Shown here: piece by piece, positions 48,707-59,582 of the stretch
Layout: each line of letters starts with the position of its first letter
Numbering within the stretch: the first letter of the stretch is position 1
Source of the DNA: an uncultured Tateyamaria sp.
GTDB lineage: Bacteria; Pseudomonadota; Alphaproteobacteria; Rhodobacterales; Rhodobacteraceae
Reading direction: 5' to 3'
NCBI RefSeq assembly: GCF_947503045.1
Contig: NZ_CANNCF010000001.1
Coordinates: forward strand, 248,001-312,000
Length of the DNA: 64,000 nt
Made by a program: the position numbers and the translations under genes
Notes under the pieces: model-generated
Told to the model about the DNA's origin: nothing
Databases searched by the model: none
Seen by the model: only the letters and a program-made list of their open reading frames with translations

Positions 48707-50482
48707 ATGACGGAGCATCTGGGACTGCGCCCGCATCAGGTGCGCCGCGAGGACCGCGCCGATGGCAGCATTTTGCTGCAGTCGGGATATGCGCTGGGGC
48801 CTGTGGATCGCTCGACCGGCGTCTGGCTGGATCGTTGGGCCAATGCGACGCCCGAGGCGCTGTTTCTGGCCGAGCGGTCGGGGCCGGGCTGGCATACGCT
48901 ATCGTATACCGAAACACGCGACCGCGTCCGGGCACTGGCCGCCGGGTTGCTGGCGCGCCGTCTTGAAGGGCCGATCCTGATCCTGTCGGGCAATTCGGTG
49001 GATCACGCGGTGCTGTCACTGGCTGCGCAATATGTGGGCCTTGTGACCGTGCCGGTGGCTGAACAGTACAGTTTGATCCCCGCGGCGCATAAGCGATTGA
49101 AATACGTGGCTGATCTGGTGAAACCTGCGCTGGTTTTTGCCGCGGACGGGGATGCCTATGGCGAAGCGCTGCGCCTTGTGGGTGGCCCGGCGGTCTGTTC
49201 GAACGTCGGCAACAGCGGGGCGATGCCTCTGGCCGATTTGCTGCGCGACGGCGGGGATGTGGAGGCCGCCCACAAGGCGGTGGGGCCCGAAACGGTGGCG
49301 AAGCTGTTGCTGACCTCGGGGTCGACCTCGGAGCCGAAAGCGGTCGAGACGACCCATGGCATGATGACCGTCAATCAGGCACAGGTGCGTGACAGTCTGC
49401 CCTTTCTCGACGCCCGCCCGCCGGTTCTGGTCGACTGGCTGCCGTGGAACCATGTCTTTGGCGGGTCGCACAATTTCAATCTTGTGCTGGCCAATGGGGG
49501 TGCGCTCTATATCGACGATGGCAAGCCGCTGCCCGCGCTGTTTCCCCGCACGCTTGAAAATCTGGGGCTGGTGTCGGGTACGATTTCGTTCAACGTCCCC
49601 GTGGGTTTTGCGCAACTCGCCGCAGCGCTGGAGGCGGACTCGGGTTTGCGTGAGACCTACTTTCGCGACCTCGACATGATCTTTTATGCGGGTGCCTCGC
49701 TGCCACAGGAAACGTGGACCAAACTGGAGCGTATGGCGCTGGATACTGCCGGGCGCATGCCGCTGATCACCTCAAGCTGGGGCCTGACCGAGACGGCACC
49801 CGCCACGTTCCTGCAGCATGAACCGGCCAAGGGCGCGGGGATTGTCGGGGTGCCGCTGCCGGGCGTGACGGCCAAGCTGCTGGACGACGGGACGGGCCGG
49901 ATGGAGGTGCGTGTGAAGGGACCGAACGTCTTTGCGCGCTATCATGCGAACTCCGAGAAAACCGCCGAAGCTTTTGATGATGAGGGGTTTTTTCGCACGG
50001 GTGACGCCATGCGCTTTGTCGATGCGGAGGTGATGGAGCGGGGTTTGCAATTTGACGGACGTCTGAGTGAGGATTTCAAACTGAGCAGTGGGACGTGGGT
50101 GCATGCGGCGCAAATCCGGCTGGAGATGCTGACCTGCCTTGGCCCCTTTGCGCAGGACGTTGTGGTTTGCGGGCATGGGCGGGACGCGCTGGGCATCCTG
50201 ATCGTGCCCGGACCAGAGGCGCGGGGTGGGCAGGTTGATAATGGCGCCTTGCTGAGTGATGTGACCTCTAACATACGAGAGCGTATGCAAGAAATCGCAG
50301 AAGTCACCACGGGCTCGGCCCGCTGCGTGGTGCGCGCACTTGTGCTGGCCGACCCGCCCGACATCGGTGCGGGTGAGGTGACGGCCAAGGGGAACATCAA
50401 CTTTGCCCGGTTGCTTGAGCGGCGCGCGGAGCTTGTTGCGCGGCTTTACGATGATGATGACCCGGCGAGTATTCTCATATGA
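48707..50482 (+). CDS. fcs: Feruloyl-CoA synthase-like acyl-CoA ligase
   Basis: A 591-residue ANL-superfamily enzyme that would adenylate a hydroxycinnamate and transfer it to CoA. The AMP site is LLLTSGSTSEPKAVETTHGM. DWLPWNHVFGGSHNFNLVLA and ALYIDDGKPLPAL are close to the pattern I know from feruloyl-CoA synthases, as is SSWGLTETAP. The C-terminal domain is variant: FDGRLSEDFKLSSGTWVHAA carries the Lys-containing hinge. It overlaps the amidohydrolase gene by ATGA. Substrate among cinnamate, coumarate, caffeate and ferulate is not resolved. Confidence 0.85.
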   Translation: MTEHLGLRPHQVRREDRADGSILLQSGYALGPVDRSTGVWLDRWANATPEALFLAERSGPGWHTLSYTETRDRVRALAAGLLARRLEGPILILSGNSVDHAVLSLAAQYVGLVTVPVAEQYSLIPAAHKRLKYVADLVKPALVFAADGDAYGEALRLVGGPAVCSNVGNSGAMPLADLLRDGGDVEAAHKAVGPETVAKLLLTSGSTSEPKAVETTHGMMTVNQAQVRDSLPFLDARPPVLVDWLPWNHVFGGSHNFNLVLANGGALYIDDGKPLPALFPRTLENLGLVSGTISFNVPVGFAQLAAALEADSGLRETYFRDLDMIFYAGASLPQETWTKLERMALDTAGRMPLITSSWGLTETAPATFLQHEPAKGAGIVGVPLPGVTAKLLDDGTGRMEVRVKGPNVFARYHANSEKTAEAFDDEGFFRTGDAMRFVDAEVMERGLQFDGRLSEDFKLSSGTWVHAAQIRLEMLTCLGPFAQDVVVCGHGRDALGILIVPGPEARGGQVDNGALLSDVTSNIRERMQEIAEVTTGSARCVVRALVLADPPDIGAGEVTAKGNINFARLLERRAELVARLYDDDDPASILI

Positions 50483-51435: not shown

Positions 51436-52962
51436 ATGAGCAACGCTGCCAGCTATTTCGTGGACCGTCATGTGGACGAAGGGCGCGCGCTGAAGGTCGC
51501 CTTTCGCGAGGCCGGGACCGGGCGCACGCTGACATATGGCGCGCTGTCTGACGCCTCCGGCCGGGCGGCGACGGCACTGGCGACCCATGGCATCGCGCGC
51601 GAGGAACGCATGGCGATGCTGGTGCTTGATCAGGTCGAATTTCCGGTGTTGTTCTGGGGCGCGCTCAAGGCCGGGGTGATCCCGGTGCCGCTGAATACGC
51701 TGCTTGCGACCCCGGTGTATGACGCGATCCTGCGCGACAGTCGCGCGACGATGCTTGTGGTGTCCGAGGCATTGTTTGACGTCGTAGCGCCAGTTCTGGC
51801 GGACAACCCTTACCTGCGCAGTGTGGTTGTGATCGGGGCGGCGCAGCCGGACACGCTGGATTACGCGTCCTTCATGTCGCTGGGGGCGGAGGTCACCGCG
51901 CCTTTCGAGGCGAGCGATGATGAGACGGCATTCTGGCTTTACTCGTCGGGCTCGACCGGGCAGCCCAAGGGTGTACATCACGTCCATTCTGCGCTCCGCG
52001 CAACGGCGGATACCTATGGTGCGCAGGTCCTGGGGATGCGTGAGGATGATGTGGTTTTTTCCGCGGCCAAGTTCTTTTTCGCCTATGGCCTCGGCAATTC
52101 GATGACCTTTCCCATGGCGGTTGGGGCGACGGTAGCGATCTTTGGTGGTCGTCCCACGCCGGAGGGGATCGTGGACATTATCGCGGCTGAGCACCCAACG
52201 GTATTCTGCGGCGTACCAACACTTTACGCAGCCATGGTGGCACATATGCAGGCCAATGGCGCGCCGGATGCGCCGTTGCGTGTGTGTATCTCCGCAGGCG
52301 AGGCGCTGCCGGAATCGGTGGGCACAAGGTGGCGGGATCTGACCGGCGTCGACATTCTGGACGGGGTCGGATCAACCGAGATGTTGCACATCTTTCTCAG
52401 CAATGCACCGGGCGACGTGGTCTATGGCACCTCCGGCGTGCCGGTGCCGGGCTATGACGTGCGCCTTGTCGATGAGGCGGGGGCCGATGTGGGCGTCGAC
52501 GAGGTGGGCGAATTGCTGGTCAATGGCGCTTCGGCGGCGGCGGGGTACTGGAACAAGCGCGACAAGACGCGCGAAACATTCCAAGGCGTATGGACGCGGA
52601 CGGGTGACAAGTATGAGCGTCGCGCCGATGGCCGGTTTGTCTATTGCGGGCGGACGGATGACATGTTCAAGGTCTCGGGCATCTGGGTCAGCCCGTTTGA
52701 GGTGGAGCAGGCCATCGCGAGCCATCCTGCGGTGCTGGAATGTGCCGTTGTCGCCGCTCGGGACGAGGATGATCTGGACAAACCCAAGGCCTTTGTCGTG
52801 ATGCAGGGCGAGCGCCCCGATGATCTGGAAGAGGTGCTGAAGGAGCATGTGAAAGACCGCATCGGCAAGTGGAAATACCCGCGCTGGGTTGAGTGTGTGG
52901 AGAGCCTGCCCAAGACGGCGACGGGCAAGATCCAACGGTTCAAGCTGCGGGAGGGCGCGTGA
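51436..52962 (+). CDS. bclA: Benzoate--CoA ligase
   Basis: A 508-residue ANL enzyme that activates benzoate or a hydroxybenzoate to the CoA ester, the entry step of the box pathway. AMP motif WLYSSGSTGQPKGVHHVHSA; AAKFFFAYGLGNSMTFPMAV and DGVGSTEMLHIFLSNAPGDV are typical of benzoate-CoA ligases; the C-terminal hinge is YCGRTDDMFKVSGIWVSPFE and the catalytic Lys is in PKTATGKIQRFKLR. GGGAGGAG lies upstream of the ATG. An ACGCAAAAT sequence at 51405-51413, also seen near boxC and boxB, lies in its leader. Overlaps the next gene by one base. Confidence 0.92.
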   Translation: MSNAASYFVDRHVDEGRALKVAFREAGTGRTLTYGALSDASGRAATALATHGIAREERMAMLVLDQVEFPVLFWGALKAGVIPVPLNTLLATPVYDAILRDSRATMLVVSEALFDVVAPVLADNPYLRSVVVIGAAQPDTLDYASFMSLGAEVTAPFEASDDETAFWLYSSGSTGQPKGVHHVHSALRATADTYGAQVLGMREDDVVFSAAKFFFAYGLGNSMTFPMAVGATVAIFGGRPTPEGIVDIIAAEHPTVFCGVPTLYAAMVAHMQANGAPDAPLRVCISAGEALPESVGTRWRDLTGVDILDGVGSTEMLHIFLSNAPGDVVYGTSGVPVPGYDVRLVDEAGADVGVDEVGELLVNGASAAAGYWNKRDKTRETFQGVWTRTGDKYERRADGRFVYCGRTDDMFKVSGIWVSPFEVEQAIASHPAVLECAVVAARDEDDLDKPKAFVVMQGERPDDLEEVLKEHVKDRIGKWKYPRWVECVESLPKTATGKIQRFKLREGA

Positions 52963-53780
52963 TGGAGTGGGCATCGGGCGCGTTGGAAATTGGCGGCCAT
53001 ACGTTGGAGTATGCATGCTGGGGGCCGCCGCCGGGTGAGGCCCCGACGCTGGTCATGCTGCATGAGGGATTGGGGTCTGTGGGCCTGTGGCGCGACTGGC
53101 CTGCTGTCTTGGCAGAGGCGACGGGCATGGGGGTCTTGGCCTATGCGCGGGCGGGGTATGGCCGCTCGTCCCCTTGTGCGTTGCCCCGTCCGCTCGACTA
53201 TATGAGCCGCGAGGCGACGGAGGTGCTGGGCCCGGTTCTGGATGCTGCGGGTGTCGGGCCTTGCGTGCTGCTGGGCCATTCGGATGGCGCGAGTATTACG
53301 GGCCTTTATGCCGGGTCGGTGTCGGATATGCGCGTGCGTGGCCTGATCCTGATCGCGCCGCATTTCTTTGCCGAAGCGCAGGGGTTGAAGGCAATCCGCG
53401 CGGTGGGCCGCGCCTATGAGGGCGGCGATCTGAAAGCCAAGCTCGCCCGTCATCACGATGAACCGGATGTGGCCTTTCGCGGTTGGCATGACGCCTGGAC
53501 CGATCCCGGATTTGCTGACTGGAACGTGGCGGATGCCATTGATCACTGGCGCGTGCCGTCGCTGATCATTCAGGGCACGGCCGATCCTTATGGCACCCTT
53601 GCGCAGGTCCGCGAGATTGAAGAGCGGACCTATGCCCCGGCGGAAGTGCTGGTGCTGGAGGGCTGCGGGCATGCGCCGCATCAGGAGCGGGCGGATGAGG
53701 TCACCGCAGAGATCGCGGCCTTTTGCCAACGCCTGCAGGCATTCGAGACGGCGGACGTTCACATCCCGGAAAGCGTTTGA
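52962..53780 (+). CDS. Alpha/beta hydrolase of the box cluster
   Basis: A 272-residue hydrolase: MLHEGLGSVGLWRDWPAVLA near the N-terminus, DYMSREATEVLGPVL, the nucleophile elbow LLGHSDGASITGLY, IQGTADPYGT with the acid, and GCGHAPHQERADE with the His. Similar genes accompany box clusters in other bacteria; ring-opening or thioester hydrolysis has been suggested but I know of no firm assignment. Its ATG overlaps the TGA of the ligase gene. A 108-base regulatory gap follows. Confidence 0.85.
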   Translation: MEWASGALEIGGHTLEYACWGPPPGEAPTLVMLHEGLGSVGLWRDWPAVLAEATGMGVLAYARAGYGRSSPCALPRPLDYMSREATEVLGPVLDAAGVGPCVLLGHSDGASITGLYAGSVSDMRVRGLILIAPHFFAEAQGLKAIRAVGRAYEGGDLKAKLARHHDEPDVAFRGWHDAWTDPGFADWNVADAIDHWRVPSLIIQGTADPYGTLAQVREIEERTYAPAEVLVLEGCGHAPHQERADEVTAEIAAFCQRLQAFETADVHIPESV

Positions 53781-53888: not shown

Positions 53889-55547
53889 ATGCCCAAGATC
53901 ATCGATTTCCAAACCGATCCGTCGAACTATCGCCACTGGCGGGTCGAATATGACGGGCCGGTGGCCAACCTGTTCATGGATGTGGACGAGGATGGCGGGC
54001 TGTTCGAGGGCTATCAACTCAAGCTGAATTCCTACGATCTGGGTGTGGATATCGAGCTGGCGGACGTGGTGCAGCGCATGCGGTTTGAACACCCCGAGGT
54101 CAAGGTTGTGGTGATGCAATCGGCCAAGGACAAGGTATTCTGTGCGGGCGCCAATATCCGGATGCTGGGCGGCGCGGCGCATGCCCACAAGGTCAACTTT
54201 TGCAAGTTCACCAACGAGACCCGCAATTCTTTTGAGGCCGCCGAGGCGGACAGCGGCCAGAAATACATCGCAGCTGTCAAAGGCGCCTGTGCGGGGGGCG
54301 GCTACGAATTGGCGCTGGCCTGCAATCACATCATGCTGGTCGACGATTCATCGTCTTCGGTGTCGCTGCCGGAGGTGCCGCTGTTGGCCGTGCTGCCTGG
54401 CACCGGCGGGCTGACCCGCGTGACCGACAAGCGTCATGTGCGCCGCGATCTGGCGGATGTGTTTTGCTCGACCGAAGAAGGCGTGAAGGGCAAGCGCGCG
54501 GTGCAGTGGAAGCTGGTGGACGAGGCGATCCCCAATTCGAAATTCGACGCGGTGGTGGCCGAACGGGCGCGCGCCTTTGCCGATGCGTCGCCCAAGGCGG
54601 ATGTGGCGCAGGGGATCGCGCTGGGGCCGCTCGACAAGAGCATCGGCGATGACGGGTCGGTGACCTATTCGCTGGTCGAGGTGGCCGTGGATCGCGCGGC
54701 GCGGCGTGCAACACTGACTCTGAGCGGCCCGTCCGAGGCGGCACCCGCGGATATGGCTGCGTTTCAGGCACTGGGTGATCAGGCCTACACGCTGCGGCTG
54801 GCGCGTGAGCTCGACGATGCCATCCTGCATCTGCGTCTGAACGAGATCGAACTGGGCCTGCTCGTGTTCCGCACGCAGGGCGATCCCGAGATGCTGCTGG
54901 CCCACGAGGCACAGTTGTTGGGCAATGCGGATCATTGGCTGGCCAATGAGGTGCTGAAATACTGGAAACGGGTGTTGAAACGGGTCGATGTGACCTCGCG
55001 CTCCATGGTCGCTTTGGTCGAACATGGCAGTTGCTTTGCCGGAGTGCTCGCCGAATTGCTGTGGTCGGTCGATCGCAGCTACATGATGGAAGACGAATTC
55101 GAGGGCGACAATCGACCCATCGCGACGGTGACGCTGAGCGCGGGGAATTTCGGCACGTACCCAATGGGCAACGACCTGACGCGGTTGCAGACGCGGTTTT
55201 ATGGCGGTGCCGGGGGCGACGGTCTTGAGGATCAGATCGGCGAAGCATTGGAAGCCGAAGAGGCCGAAGAGCTGGGGCTGGTCACCATGATCCTTGATGA
55301 CATCGACTGGGAGGATGAAATCCGCATCTTCATGGAAGAACGCGCGTCGTTCTCGCCCGATGCGATGACGGGGATGGAGGCAAACTTGCGCTTTGCCGGA
55401 CCTGAGACGATGGAGACGCGCATATTCGGGCGTCTGACCGCCTGGCAGAACTGGATATTCAACCGCCCCAACGCGGTTGGGGATGACGGCGCGTTGCAGC
55501 GCTATGGATCGGGCCTGCGGGCGGACTTTGATATGAAACGTGTGTGA
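53889..55547 (+). CDS. boxC: 2,3-epoxybenzoyl-CoA dihydrolase BoxC
   Basis: A 552-residue enzyme that hydrolyses and opens the ring of 2,3-epoxybenzoyl-CoA to the dehydroadipyl-CoA semialdehyde and formate. It begins MPKIIDFQTDPSNYRHWRVE, and the crotonase-like half has DKVFCAGANIRMLGG and KGACAGGGYELALACNHI, then PEVPLLAVLPGTGGLTRV. The second half (LVEVAVDRAARRATLTLSG onward) is a further crotonase-like domain. The ribosome site before ATG 53889 is weak (GAG at about 10 bases). It precedes boxB by 76 bases containing a strong hairpin. Confidence 0.96.
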   Translation: MPKIIDFQTDPSNYRHWRVEYDGPVANLFMDVDEDGGLFEGYQLKLNSYDLGVDIELADVVQRMRFEHPEVKVVVMQSAKDKVFCAGANIRMLGGAAHAHKVNFCKFTNETRNSFEAAEADSGQKYIAAVKGACAGGGYELALACNHIMLVDDSSSSVSLPEVPLLAVLPGTGGLTRVTDKRHVRRDLADVFCSTEEGVKGKRAVQWKLVDEAIPNSKFDAVVAERARAFADASPKADVAQGIALGPLDKSIGDDGSVTYSLVEVAVDRAARRATLTLSGPSEAAPADMAAFQALGDQAYTLRLARELDDAILHLRLNEIELGLLVFRTQGDPEMLLAHEAQLLGNADHWLANEVLKYWKRVLKRVDVTSRSMVALVEHGSCFAGVLAELLWSVDRSYMMEDEFEGDNRPIATVTLSAGNFGTYPMGNDLTRLQTRFYGGAGGDGLEDQIGEALEAEEAEELGLVTMILDDIDWEDEIRIFMEERASFSPDAMTGMEANLRFAGPETMETRIFGRLTAWQNWIFNRPNAVGDDGALQRYGSGLRADFDMKRV

Positions 55548-55623: not shown

Positions 55624-57072
55624 ATGGATTTGGTCAACGTCAGTTATGACTCGCAGATTCCCAACAATGTGGGGCTGAGCCAGGACCGCAAGGTGCTGAA
55701 GGCGCTGGAAAAATGGCATCCCGGTTACATCAACTGGTGGAATGAACTGATCCCGCAGAACTTTCAGGAAAGCATGGTCTATTTGCGCACTGCCGTCAGC
55801 GTGGATCCGAAAGGCTGGGCCAAGTTCGACTACGTGAAGATGCCGGAATATCGCTGGGGTGTGCTTCTGGCCCCTGCGGTCGAGGATCGTCGCATTCCCA
55901 TGGGCGAGCATTATGGCGAGCCTGCGTGGCAGGAAGTGCCGGGCGAGTATCGCAACATGCTCAAACGTCTGATCGTGATTCAAGGCGATACCGAGCCGGG
56001 CTCGGTGGAGCAACAACGCTTTCTCGGGCTGACCGCGCCGAGCCTTTACGACATGCGCAACCTGTTTCAGGTCAATGTCGAAGAGGGCCGCCACCTTTGG
56101 GCGATGGTGTATCTCTTGCAGAAATATTTCGGCAAGGATGGCCGGGAAGAGGCGGATGACATGCTTGTTCGCTCTTCCGGCTCGGATGAGGCGCCGCGCA
56201 TGTTGGGGGCGTTCAATGAGGAAACGCCCGACTGGCTGTCCTTCTTCATGTTCACCTATTTCACCGATCGCGATGGCAAGATGCAGTTGGAAAGCCTCGC
56301 GCAATCCGGCTTTGACCCGCTGTCACGCACCTGCCGTTTCATGCTGACCGAAGAAGCGCATCACATGTTTGTCGGCGAGACCGGCGTCGGGCGCACCATT
56401 CAGGCGACGCTGGAGGCGATGCAGGCCAATGGCATCGATGATCCCTATGACATCGACAAGATCCGCGCCCTTGGAGTGATCGACCTGCCCACGATCCAGA
56501 AAAAGCTGAACTTGCATTATACCCTGTCCCTCGATCTGTTTGGGCAAGAGGTCAGCACCAACGCGGCCAATGCGTTCAGTGCAGGCATCAAGGGCCGTTA
56601 TCTGGAGCAGCGGATCGAGGATGATCACAAGCTGCAAAGCGACACCTATGCGGTGGCGAGCATCAAGGACGGGCAGATCGTAACCGAAGATGTGCCCGCG
56701 CTGACGGCCATCAACATGCGTCTGCGCGATGATTATGTGCGCGATGCCTCCGGCGGTCTGCGCCGCTGGAACAAGCAGATCCAGCGCACCGGGATCGAAT
56801 TCGAGTTGAAGCTGCCGCATGAAGGGTTCCATCGCAAGATTGGCGTCTTTGCCGGTCAGCCGATCACACCCGAGGGCACCTTCATCAGCGCCGAGGACTG
56901 GGCCGCGCGCGAGGCGGACTGGTTGCCCACCAAGGCGGATGGGGATTTCATCCAGTCGCTGATGAAGCCCTGTTTCGAGCCCGGCAAATACGCCAGCTGG
57001 ATCGCCCCGCCCCGCGTCGGGATCGACAACAAGCCGGGCGACTTCGAATATGTCAAACTGCACATGGCCTGA
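55624..57072 (+). CDS. boxB: Benzoyl-CoA 2,3-epoxidase subunit BoxB
   Basis: A 482-residue di-iron oxygenase that adds one O atom of O2 to benzoyl-CoA. It begins MDLVNVSYDSQIPNNVGLSQ; the first metal-binding pair lies near EEGRH (residues 152-156) and the second near EEAHH (243-247), on a four-helix bundle of the class I di-iron type. LNLHYTLSLDLFGQEVSTNA and RGRYLEQRIEDDH-like sequence follow. It needs electrons, normally from BoxA; in this window a flavodoxin follows instead. CAGGAG lies before the ATG. Confidence 0.97.
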   Translation: MDLVNVSYDSQIPNNVGLSQDRKVLKALEKWHPGYINWWNELIPQNFQESMVYLRTAVSVDPKGWAKFDYVKMPEYRWGVLLAPAVEDRRIPMGEHYGEPAWQEVPGEYRNMLKRLIVIQGDTEPGSVEQQRFLGLTAPSLYDMRNLFQVNVEEGRHLWAMVYLLQKYFGKDGREEADDMLVRSSGSDEAPRMLGAFNEETPDWLSFFMFTYFTDRDGKMQLESLAQSGFDPLSRTCRFMLTEEAHHMFVGETGVGRTIQATLEAMQANGIDDPYDIDKIRALGVIDLPTIQKKLNLHYTLSLDLFGQEVSTNAANAFSAGIKGRYLEQRIEDDHKLQSDTYAVASIKDGQIVTEDVPALTAINMRLRDDYVRDASGGLRRWNKQIQRTGIEFELKLPHEGFHRKIGVFAGQPITPEGTFISAEDWAAREADWLPTKADGDFIQSLMKPCFEPGKYASWIAPPRVGIDNKPGDFEYVKLHMA

Positions 57073-57084
57073 GGGAGAAACGCG

Positions 57085-57264
57085 ATGCAGATCAACCGTT
57101 CCACCCTGTCAACGGACACGACGCCGACCCGCGCGTTTTGTCCGCTGGAATGCGAAGAATGTAGAGGGATGTGTTTGCCGCTCTATATGATGTTGACGCG
57201 CGACGAGCAGGACGAGATGTGTCGCCGTTATGGTTTGGGCGCGCAGCCGGTCACACGGCATTGA
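57085..57264 (+). CDS. 59-residue cysteine-rich protein between boxB and flavodoxin
   Basis: Starts at ATG 57085 with AGGGAG 7 bases upstream, 12 bases after the boxB stop, and ends with TGA 17 bases before the flavodoxin. It begins MQINRSTLSTDTTPTRAFC and holds CPLECEECRGMC, spacing C-x3-C-x2-C-x4-C (Cys19, 23, 26, 31 or so by count), with a fifth Cys near residue 48 in DEMCRRYGLG. There is no signal peptide. The spacing could hold an Fe-S cluster or zinc, but I recognise no family. Placement suggests a role in BoxB electron supply or assembly; that is inference. Confidence 0.7.
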   Translation: MQINRSTLSTDTTPTRAFCPLECEECRGMCLPLYMMLTRDEQDEMCRRYGLGAQPVTRH

Positions 57265-57280
57265 GAAAGAGGGTAAGGTC

Positions 57281-57742
57281 ATGAAAGTAGGACTGTATTA
57301 CGGCTCGGAAACCGGTAATTCCGAAATGCTGTGCGAGGATATCGAGACGGAACTGGGTGGTGAATACGACTGCCACATCTCGAGCCTTGCGGATGTGAAC
57401 CCATCCACGCTTGCCAAGGACACGTTCTATATCTTTGTCACCTCGACCTATGGCAATGGCGATCTGCCCTCGACCGCGTTGCCGTTTGAAGAGGCGATCC
57501 TGGGTCAGGCGCCTGACCTGAGCGGGGTGCGTTTTGCGATCTTTGGCCTTGGCGATCAGGTTTTTGCCGAGACGTTCAATCACGGATCGCAAAAGCTGAT
57601 GCAGATGCTGCTGGACCGCAAGGCCGAGATGATCGGGGTGCGGGGGCTGCATGACGCGTCCGGCTTTGACATGCCCGAGGACGTGGCCCTGCCCTGGGTT
57701 GCGGGTATCATGGAGCAGTTGCAGGCGGCCAAAGCGGCCTGA
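57281..57742 (+). CDS. Flavodoxin-domain protein of the box operon
   Basis: A 153-residue single-domain flavodoxin of the MioC/short-chain group. FMN phosphate loop YYGSETGNSEMLCEDI (residues about 5-20); the ring-binding loops are VTSTYGNGDLPST and FGLGDQVFAETFNHG; ending ALPWVAGIMEQL. No reductase or ferredoxin domain is fused. It sits where one would look for boxA and could pass single electrons to BoxB. ATG 57281 follows a GAGGGTAAGG stretch; the thioesterase GTG begins one base after its stop. Confidence 0.88.
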   Translation: MKVGLYYGSETGNSEMLCEDIETELGGEYDCHISSLADVNPSTLAKDTFYIFVTSTYGNGDLPSTALPFEEAILGQAPDLSGVRFAIFGLGDQVFAETFNHGSQKLMQMLLDRKAEMIGVRGLHDASGFDMPEDVALPWVAGIMEQLQAAKAA

Positions 57743-57743
57743 C

Positions 57744-58166
57744 GTGACAGACCCTTTTATCCACGACATCCGCGTCACATGGGGCGATTGTGATCCGGCG
57801 CGCATTGCCTATACCGCGCGCCTGCCATGGTTTGCGCTCGACGCCATCAATGCCTGGTGGGAGGCCCATCTGGGTGGGGATGGCTGGTATCAGCTGGAGC
57901 TGGACCGCAATATCGGCACCCCCTTTGTCCATCTGAGCATGGATTTCCGCAGCCCAGTCACCCCGCGCCACCGGTTGATGTGCGAGGTTTGGCCCAGCCG
58001 CTTGGGCGAGACGTCGATCACCTTTTCCATGTGCGCCCGGCAGGATGGCACCTTGTGTTTCGAGGGGACGTTTACCTGCGTGTTCGTTGTGGCGGACCAG
58101 TTCAAACGCCAGCCTCCGCCCCCCGACCTGCGCGATATCATCGCACCCCTTGTTCGTCTCACGTGA
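57744..58166 (+). CDS. Hot-dog thioesterase (4-hydroxybenzoyl-CoA thioesterase-like)
   Basis: A 140-residue thioesterase. The motif IRVTWGDCDPARIAYTARLP with the Asp that is catalytic in Pseudomonas 4HBT is near residue 10-30; FALDAINAWWEAHLG forms the long helix and FRSPVTPRHRLMCEVWPSRL the strands. It starts at GTG 57744, one base after the flavodoxin stop. It probably releases CoA from stalled benzoyl-CoA-type esters and so rescues the CoA pool. Confidence 0.87.
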   Translation: MTDPFIHDIRVTWGDCDPARIAYTARLPWFALDAINAWWEAHLGGDGWYQLELDRNIGTPFVHLSMDFRSPVTPRHRLMCEVWPSRLGETSITFSMCARQDGTLCFEGTFTCVFVVADQFKRQPPPPDLRDIIAPLVRLT

Positions 58167-58224
58167 GGCCTTGAAGCAGCGCATTCGAGGACTAGAACCT
58201 TCTGTTAACCGTAAGAAATCACAT

Positions 58225-59118
58225 ATGACATCACCTAAACCGATCCCCGGTGCTTCGGTGCCGCTTATCTCCCGACTCGCCACACGTGTGCGGGCGGCCC
58301 GCCTGAACATGGGATTGCCCCGTCGCGCGCTGTCGGAACGGTCGGGCGTGTCGCCCCGTTATCTCGCGCAGCTTGAGGCGGGCGAGGGCAATATCTCGGT
58401 CCTGTTGCTGCACCGCGTGGCTATGGCGCTGAACATGAACATCGAGGATTTGCTGTCCGAAACGCCGCCTTTTGATGCGGATGTGACACGGGTTGCGCAG
58501 CTGTACGAGCAGGCGTCGGTGACGGTGCAGGGCAGGGTCCGCGCGCTGCTGGCCCCGGAGAACCCGGCCACGTTGCGCGCGCAGCGCATATGCCTTGTCG
58601 GGCTGCGCGGGGCCGGGAAATCGACGCTCGGCCGGATGGCGGCGGACAAGCTGAAGATCCCCTTTGTCGAGTTGAATGACGAGATCGAGACCGAGGTCGG
58701 CATGCCGTTGAGCGAGGTCATGGCCCTGTACGGGCAGGATGGTTATCGCGCGATGGAGGCCGAGGCCATCGACCGCGTGGTGGCGCGCCATGACAAGCTG
58801 ATCCTTGCCGTGGCGGGCGGCATCGTGGCCGAAACCGCCACTTACACGCAGGTGCTGGAGCGGTTCCACACTGTGTGGGTGCGCACCAGTCCGGCCGAGC
58901 ACATGGCCCGTGTCCGCGCGCAGGGCGATCTGCGCCCGATGGAGGGCAACCCGGCGGCGATGGATCAGCTCAAGAGCTTTCTGACGACGCGCACCCCGCT
59001 CTATGAGCAGGCGCTGGCGCAGGTCGATACAAGCACCAAGCCGGTACAGACTTCGGTCAACGAATTGCTGGCCGTGATCGCCACCAACCGCTTTCTGGAG
59101 AGCATCGGAACGCAATGA
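58225..59118 (+). CDS. boxR: Transcriptional regulator BoxR (HTH plus shikimate-kinase-like domain)
   Basis: A 297-residue regulator of the BoxR/BzdR family. The N-terminal XRE-type helix-turn-helix spans about residues 18-75 (RRALSERSGVSPRYLAQLEA). The C-terminal half resembles shikimate kinase, with Walker A GLRGAGKSTLGRMAA, ELNDEIETEVG and AVAGGIVAETATY, and in BzdR binds benzoyl-CoA, which releases DNA. ATG 58225; no strong ribosome site. The likely operator TGCA-N6-TGCA is at 53784. Its TGA overlaps the start of the next gene (ATGA). Confidence 0.94.
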   Translation: MTSPKPIPGASVPLISRLATRVRAARLNMGLPRRALSERSGVSPRYLAQLEAGEGNISVLLLHRVAMALNMNIEDLLSETPPFDADVTRVAQLYEQASVTVQGRVRALLAPENPATLRAQRICLVGLRGAGKSTLGRMAADKLKIPFVELNDEIETEVGMPLSEVMALYGQDGYRAMEAEAIDRVVARHDKLILAVAGGIVAETATYTQVLERFHTVWVRTSPAEHMARVRAQGDLRPMEGNPAAMDQLKSFLTTRTPLYEQALAQVDTSTKPVQTSVNELLAVIATNRFLESIGTQ

Positions 59119-59582
59119 CCGAGCTGGTCGCGCCACTGCAGGACGCGCTCTGGCAGGCCTGCGAGCAGATGTTGATGGACCACACCAACCCGTGGGAACT
59201 GGACGAGGCGCTTGTGGCGTGGGGATATAGGCTTGGCCCGTGCGAAGCGCAGGACCTTGTTGGTCTGGACGTCGTGCTGGCGGGTCGGGCCGGATCGACC
59301 CCGGCCCCCATCCTTGGCCGTATGGTGGCCGAGGGACGGCTCGGCAAGAAGGGGGGCTGGGGGTTTTATCGTTACCCCGGTGGCGGTGGCGCGGTGATCG
59401 ACCCGCTGATCGAAGATCTGATCCGCGAAGAGGCCCATTTCGCGCAGCGTGCCCGGGAAGAACTGGAGGGTGCGCCGCTGGTCGACCGTCTGCACGGGAT
59501 GATCGCGGCGGCGCTGCGGGCTGATCCTGAGGGTGCCGTGGCGCTACTGCATTTTCCGCGATCCAAAGTGCATCTGATCTGA
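59115..59582 (+). CDS. Stand-alone 3-hydroxyacyl-CoA dehydrogenase C-terminal domain
   Basis: A 155-residue protein that matches only the helical C-terminal domain of 3-hydroxyacyl-CoA dehydrogenases: WELDEALVAWGYRLGPCEAQ, DLVGLDVVLAGR, ILGRMVAEGRLGKKGGWGFY-RY. The NAD-binding Rossmann domain is missing and there is no upstream remnant, since the gene starts inside the boxR stop (ATGA). Residues after 95 (LIREEAHFAQRAREELEGAP) are helical and extra. It may bind acyl-CoA or dimerise with a full dehydrogenase elsewhere. It ends the aromatic operon. Confidence 0.82.
   Translation: MTELVAPLQDALWQACEQMLMDHTNPWELDEALVAWGYRLGPCEAQDLVGLDVVLAGRAGSTPAPILGRMVAEGRLGKKGGWGFYRYPGGGGAVIDPLIEDLIREEAHFAQRAREELEGAPLVDRLHGMIAAALRADPEGAVALLHFPRSKVHLI

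Follow-up and report, generated by a model that had tools for sequence, protein, structure and literature searches.

In an uncultured Tateyamaria sp., a short single-domain flavodoxin has probably replaced BoxA in place within the box operon and taken over the one-electron supply to BoxB, a diiron epoxidase, with a ferredoxin/flavodoxin-NADP reductase (FPR) as its candidate reductase. In known box systems, BoxA is the large iron-sulfur flavoprotein feeding electrons to BoxB, and it is regarded as a half that the benzoyl-CoA epoxidase cannot do without. A box system variant with an exchanged electron donor is new within the literature searched: the accessible portions of that literature, mostly excluding subscription papers, hold nothing on a flavodoxin in connection with BoxB or benzoyl-CoA, nor on Tateyamaria in connection with benzoate, and an earlier mention is possible.

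The box operon and its flavodoxin gene

The operon within the window (the whole stretch of 64,000 nucleotides analysed) runs in the order AMP-ligase, amidohydrolase, bclA, alpha/beta hydrolase, boxC, boxB, ORF59 (the miniprotein gene), flavodoxin, thioesterase, boxR-like gene, and a gene with a 3-hydroxyacyl-CoA dehydrogenase domain, with the following features:

48707-50482: AMP-ligase (label by eye only)
51436..52962, + strand: bclA, benzoate-CoA ligase (TIGR02262, 730.1 bits against a cut-off of 375.25)
52893..53780, + strand: alpha/beta hydrolase of the box operon (PF12697; match at the same place in 19 of 20 boxA-type loci)
53889..55547, + strand: boxC, 2,3-epoxybenzoyl-CoA dihydrolase (TIGR03222, 961.3 bits against 712.3, full length)
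55624..57072, + strand: boxB, diiron benzoyl-CoA 2,3-epoxidase (TIGR03225, 893.6 bits against 499.1)
57085..57264, + strand: ORF59, Cys-rich miniprotein of 59 aa (five Cys; no Pfam or NCBIfam family)
57281..57742, + strand: short single-domain flavodoxin of 153 aa in the boxA slot (PF00258, 80 bits against 25)
57744..58166, + strand: 4HBT-type thioesterase (PF13279)
58219..59118, + strand: BoxR-like regulator with HTH and shikimate-kinase-like domain (NF006015, 359.8 bits against 204)
59115..59582, + strand: 3-hydroxyacyl-CoA dehydrogenase C-terminal domain protein (PF00725)

The sequence-only reading of this DNA had described boxC, boxB, a 59-residue Cys-rich ORF, and a single-domain flavodoxin, and its coordinates and spacings were all correct, with 12 bases between boxB and ORF59 and 16 between ORF59 and the flavodoxin gene. 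BoxB covers positions 1-471 of the 471 of the TIGR03225 profile, and five of its candidate diiron-ligand residues, E124, E154, H157, E244, and H247, are identical in 131/131 aligned BoxB sequences. Compared with five loci of other Tateyamaria, boxB has a pairwise dN/dS of 0.027-0.049 and the flavodoxin gene one of 0.093-0.174; both are under purifying selection. As it also recurs in 28 further loci, the arrangement is more than chance.

The absence of boxA noted from the 64 kb alone extends to the whole genome (4.74 Mb, 97.9% complete), in which TIGR03224 scores no higher than 21.8 bits against a cut-off of 459.2, and the three matches are partial and all fall on the first 65 positions of the model. 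A boxA over the TIGR03224 cut-off is likewise missing from all 28 further genomes that share the boxB-flavodoxin arrangement (partial matches at E 1e-10 in nine, the best of 85.2 bits in a 1086-residue frame), and an assembly gap is therefore an unlikely cause of the missing gene.

Among 295 sampled Rhodobacteraceae genomes, boxB was over the cut-off in 62 and boxA in 56 of these 62. The six boxB genomes lacking boxA are the genome under study (G000), G240, G056, G139, G102, and G220, and a flavodoxin relative adjacent to boxB was seen in exactly the first four, that is, in 4/6 boxA-less versus 0/56 boxA-bearing genomes (Fisher 2.7e-5). The contig of G102 ends at boxB and is uninformative on boxA or flavodoxin, while G220 (locus L040; 75% complete) carries boxB, the miniprotein gene, and boxR consecutively and shows no match to boxA or the flavodoxin between them, being either a true exception or a loss. 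In no genome searched for both, within the family or across the class, were boxA and a boxB-proximal flavodoxin found together. Seven boxA-bearing family genomes hold a 47-51% identical flavodoxin away from boxB, where it adjoins an adrenodoxin-reductase-like gene in another operon.

The position of the flavodoxin gene was compared with that of boxA in 20 of the 56 boxA-type family loci, which were read with their flanks. There, boxA lies after boxB in 20/20 and boxR after boxA in 19/20, L241 being the sole locus without a boxR match after boxA; thioesterase relatives stand directly after boxA in 15, and bclA and boxC (20/20) and the hydrolase gene (19/20) lie upstream of boxB. A contig search with four box flavodoxins as queries, of which the best 80 of 134 relatives were examined, found boxB beside the flavodoxin in at least 28 further loci: 13 from Tateyamaria (including the first eleven loci in the list of relatives), four from Roseicyclus, one each from Pacificoceanicola and a Rhodobacterales isolate, and the remainder from three Rhodobacteraceae MAGs, two Rhizobiaceae MAGs, and four SAR116 genomes. 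The flavodoxin gene lies between boxB and boxR in the operon under study and in 28/28 of these loci (29 in all), boxC precedes boxB in 27/28 (the L125 contig begins within boxB), and bclA and the hydrolase gene precede it in 26/28. The slot after boxB that belongs to boxA in 20/20 boxA-type loci is thus held by a flavodoxin in 29, which bears out the earlier description of a flavodoxin instead of BoxA. Relatives sharing 60-63% identity with the flavodoxin under study also occur outside box operons, at L061, L066, and L067, the first two downstream of glmU/glmS-like genes (labels by eye).

boxB genomes across the Alphaproteobacteria

A class-wide sample of 385 alphaproteobacterial genomes contained boxB in 81, and the class counts use the 80 boxB genomes other than G000, one of which (G055) belongs to Rhodobacteraceae. 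boxA was found in 14/80, comprising 13 over the cut-off and G551 with a truncated match at a contig end, and was not found in the other 66 at E 1e-40. BoxA is therefore missing from most of the sampled class boxB genomes outside the family, a wider absence than the sequence-only reading had supposed. The flavodoxin profile matches 40/80 of these genomes at E 1e-10, namely 37/66 boxA-less (including G425, where the flavodoxin is found only inside a larger frame) and 3/14 boxA-bearing. Comparison of coordinates places a flavodoxin no more than 20 kb from boxB in 23/66 boxA-less versus 0/14 boxA-bearing genomes (Fisher 0.008); a profile match within that distance is absent in 43/66 boxA-less genomes, and one anywhere in the genome is absent in 29/66 (E 1e-10), so that BoxB must also have other donors.

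When the class loci were fetched, 22 of the 23 boxB-near flavodoxins were seen again, 18 of the 22 being divergent and beside boxR, at a distance of 2.5 to 4.2 kb upstream of the boxB start. An adrenodoxin-reductase-like gene follows boxB in 9/68 class loci, in five of them directly, in the position of boxA; the product of the one boxB-adjacent gene checked matches adrenodoxin reductase 1cjc at E 7.8e-70, and a flavodoxin is also present in 8/9 of these loci, L209 being the one without. At L155, L180, L194, and L211, boxB, flavodoxin, and adrenodoxin-type reductase genes are followed by genes resembling subunits of 2-oxoacid:ferredoxin oxidoreductase (by eye), possibly an additional source of reduced carrier. 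A search of the 68 class loci for ferredoxin-like motifs around boxB gave just scattered pattern matches, mostly chance-looking.

The electron supply of BoxB

The nearest solved structure to the flavodoxin by sequence is that of cindoxin (4oxx, E 4.2e-21; next best 1.4e-12), and among the matches listed no NCBIfam flavodoxin equivalog, including FldA, reaches its cut-off, the best being MioC with 74.8 bits against 158. The protein is acidic (pI 4.2) and holds the stretches SETGN, TYGNGDLP, and FGLGD, presumably the FMN-loop motifs. The relationship to cindoxin offers a precedent for a flavodoxin as oxygenase donor, as the part of PMC9687028 available describes the P450cin system as a chain of NADPH-cindoxin reductase, cindoxin, and P450cin with cindoxin as the FMN carrier. 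Both systems would thus employ a single-domain FMN carrier as the presumed donor of an oxygenase, the differences being that the oxygenase here is a diiron epoxidase rather than a P450 and that the scan of the operon genes brought up none for a reductase. Among the matches listed for the ten operon proteins scanned, none was to a P450.

A flavodoxin stretch 37-39% identical to the protein also occurs in three plasmid genes of Rhodococcus and Gordonia annotated as cytochrome P450, which we take to be XplA, a P450-flavodoxin fusion. The available text of PMC10820124 names XplA together with an adrenodoxin-reductase-like partner, and a pairing of flavodoxin and adrenodoxin reductase recurs beside boxB in the class loci, but the flavodoxin is free-standing here and an adrenodoxin-type reductase was found in 0/30 genome entries of the in-slot type. 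The same flavodoxin subfamily is paired with an adrenodoxin-reductase-like gene in 40 of the loci of the best 80 of 134 relatives, and at L041-L047 such a pair ends another catabolic operon with genes for a ThDP enzyme, an aspartate-dehydrogenase-like protein, and an aldehyde dehydrogenase (by eye).

Gene context gives good support to the flavodoxin as the putative electron donor of BoxB. In the proposed route, NADPH would reduce FPR, which would in turn reduce the flavodoxin at its FMN; this carrier would then give the diiron site of BoxB two electrons, one at a time, for the activation of O2, and BoxC would open the resulting epoxide. The operon shares with the BoxAB system of Azoarcus evansii full BoxB and BoxC equivalogs and the companions bclA and boxR, and differs from it in the absence of the BoxA gene and the flavodoxin in its slot. 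BoxA is described in the part of PMC4498308 available as an NADPH- and FAD-specific reductase that carries two [4Fe-4S] clusters; the same source presents PaaA as a structural homologue of BoxB, and BoxB as monomeric. Phenylacetyl-CoA epoxidase (PaaABCE) is likewise an aryl-CoA epoxidase but has the dedicated reductase PaaE, whereas BoxB here has a separate flavodoxin alongside.

With regard to the reductase, the genome holds five PF00175 matches, including an FPR of 266 aa and a PaaE-like protein (399.8 bits against a cut-off of 420.8). The FPR, whose gene adjoins that of the 7Fe ferredoxin FdxA, matches 2bgi/2bgj at E 1.8e-128, which the available text of PMC3212534 assigns to the R. capsulatus enzyme. 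An adrenodoxin-type reductase was found in 0/30 flavodoxin-type genome entries versus 8/50 boxA-type entries (E 1e-30; best 23 candidates or fewer per genome), where G240 and G295 are apparently one genome and L065 and L076 are apparently the same genomes as the included G139 and G056. Such a reductase is accordingly not supported as the partner of the flavodoxin in Tateyamaria, and by elimination FPR is slightly favoured for that role.

Over 24 aligned rows, the miniprotein is invariant at M1, R5, four Cys, and one Gly, in the pattern C-x(2,3)-C-x(2)-C-x-G-x-C, and it is perhaps metal-binding. Its profile weakly matches the PsaC Fe-S loop (E 4.4e-4 over 16 positions), a Fer4-type Pfam domain was matched by one homologue at 14.9 bits against 27 and by neither three other homologues nor the miniprotein itself, and its structure model is poor (pLDDT 67.6, pTM 0.41). 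It lies downstream of boxB in 26/32 boxA-type family loci and in 0/11 boxA-type loci outside the family and 0/60 other class rows, its motif occurs near boxB in none of the 68 class loci, and it is absent from 16/28 flavodoxin-type loci, two of these from Tateyamaria. The boxA-type profile, which misses the Tateyamaria form and so yields lower bounds, finds it in at least 46/295 family genomes, at least 40 of them with boxB (39/56 boxA-bearing genomes and G220). The six boxB-less family genomes with a miniprotein include three (L223, L224, and L228) where it stands after TRAP-transporter-like genes (by eye). The miniprotein is thus a family-specific accessory of box operons, a neighbour of boxB that is not tied to the flavodoxin; its co-occurrence with boxA and its absence from the 16 flavodoxin-type loci are the grounds for rejecting it as the partner of the flavodoxin. 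The sequence-only reading had drawn a chain from a general reductase via flavodoxin, perhaps through the miniprotein, to BoxB: the chain is strengthened by the missing boxA, the replacement in the slot, the exclusion with boxA, and the presence of FPR, and the miniprotein step is not supported.

Three other accounts were weighed against the donation of electrons by the flavodoxin. The most serious holds that BoxB is fed by another reductase of the cell, PaaE-like or FPR with FdxA, and that the flavodoxin does something else. The PaaE-like protein and the FdxA-FPR gene pair could indeed serve BoxB, and some BoxB must use other donors given the 29/66 boxA-less class genomes without a flavodoxin-profile match; against this stand the flavodoxin gene between boxB and boxR in 29 loci, the place of boxA in relatives, the entry of flavodoxins into box loci probably more than once, and the exclusion with boxA, which an unrelated role of the flavodoxin would not predict, making this account unlikely. 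It is highly improbable that the miniprotein is the actual carrier, a [4Fe-4S] protein between flavodoxin and BoxB, as its invariant cysteine motif and PsaC match might suggest, when it is missing from more than half of the 28 flavodoxin-type loci, has no motif near boxB in the class loci, is present in boxA-bearing and boxB-less family genomes, and has a sub-threshold best Pfam match and a low-confidence structure model. We give equally little credence to a decaying operon, with boxA lost, BoxB idle, and the flavodoxin an unrelated arrival; the genome does lack boxA, but the low boxB dN/dS within Tateyamaria, the invariant candidate iron ligands, and the keeping of the operon in 28 further loci speak against it.

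History and meaning of the probable donor exchange

The BoxB tree comprises 131 rows with SH-aLRT support only, a midpoint root, and many weak forks, and leaves out L155 and L172 (stop in the translated match), L153, L176, L177, L189, L206, and L207 of the class loci, as well as L125 of the flavodoxin-type loci (BoxB fragment). The in-slot flavodoxin type falls inside a boxA-rich clade, starred on the tree, of 68 rows (40 boxA-type and 28 flavodoxin-type), and 54 boxA-less class sequences make up the other side of the midpoint root, which is not starred. Parsimony counts five changes for the in-slot type, of which the supported branches force only one, and a single clade of in-slot flavodoxin BoxB is neither demonstrated nor rejected (p-AU 0.304). 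Much of the flavodoxin-type count is thus shared descent and independent switches are few; across well-supported branches, a difference in boxA separates only three independent pairs, a number with which significance is impossible.

A tree of 103 flavodoxin rows places the 22 class-wide box flavodoxins in one clade (support 100/99) apart from the in-slot ones; on its supported branches the in-slot label must change four times or more, with non-box flavodoxins interleaved. Judging from these trees, box loci probably acquired a flavodoxin on two or more occasions. Two recruitments are the simplest reading of trees with a midpoint root only; an old association of flavodoxin and box genes with later losses may be the alternative.

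Taken over the class, it is rather likely that BoxB is a donor-promiscuous diiron epoxidase served by at least three supply modules in Alphaproteobacteria, with flavodoxin recruited at least twice. These modules would be BoxA, the in-slot flavodoxin with housekeeping FPR, and the divergent flavodoxin, joined in some loci by an adrenodoxin-type reductase after boxB, and another donor would operate where neither BoxA nor flavodoxin was found.

In the part of PMC10803450 available, a genomic pathway survey takes the lack of BoxA in one cluster to impede degradation. If a flavodoxin can stand in for BoxA, many alphaproteobacterial box operons that look incomplete would be complete, benzoate degradation would have been undercounted in such bacteria, and simple redox partners that are already well known could drive BoxB. 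The arrangement provides a test case for a change of donor in a non-heme diiron oxygenase, and suggests that BoxB can be powered by interchangeable partners.
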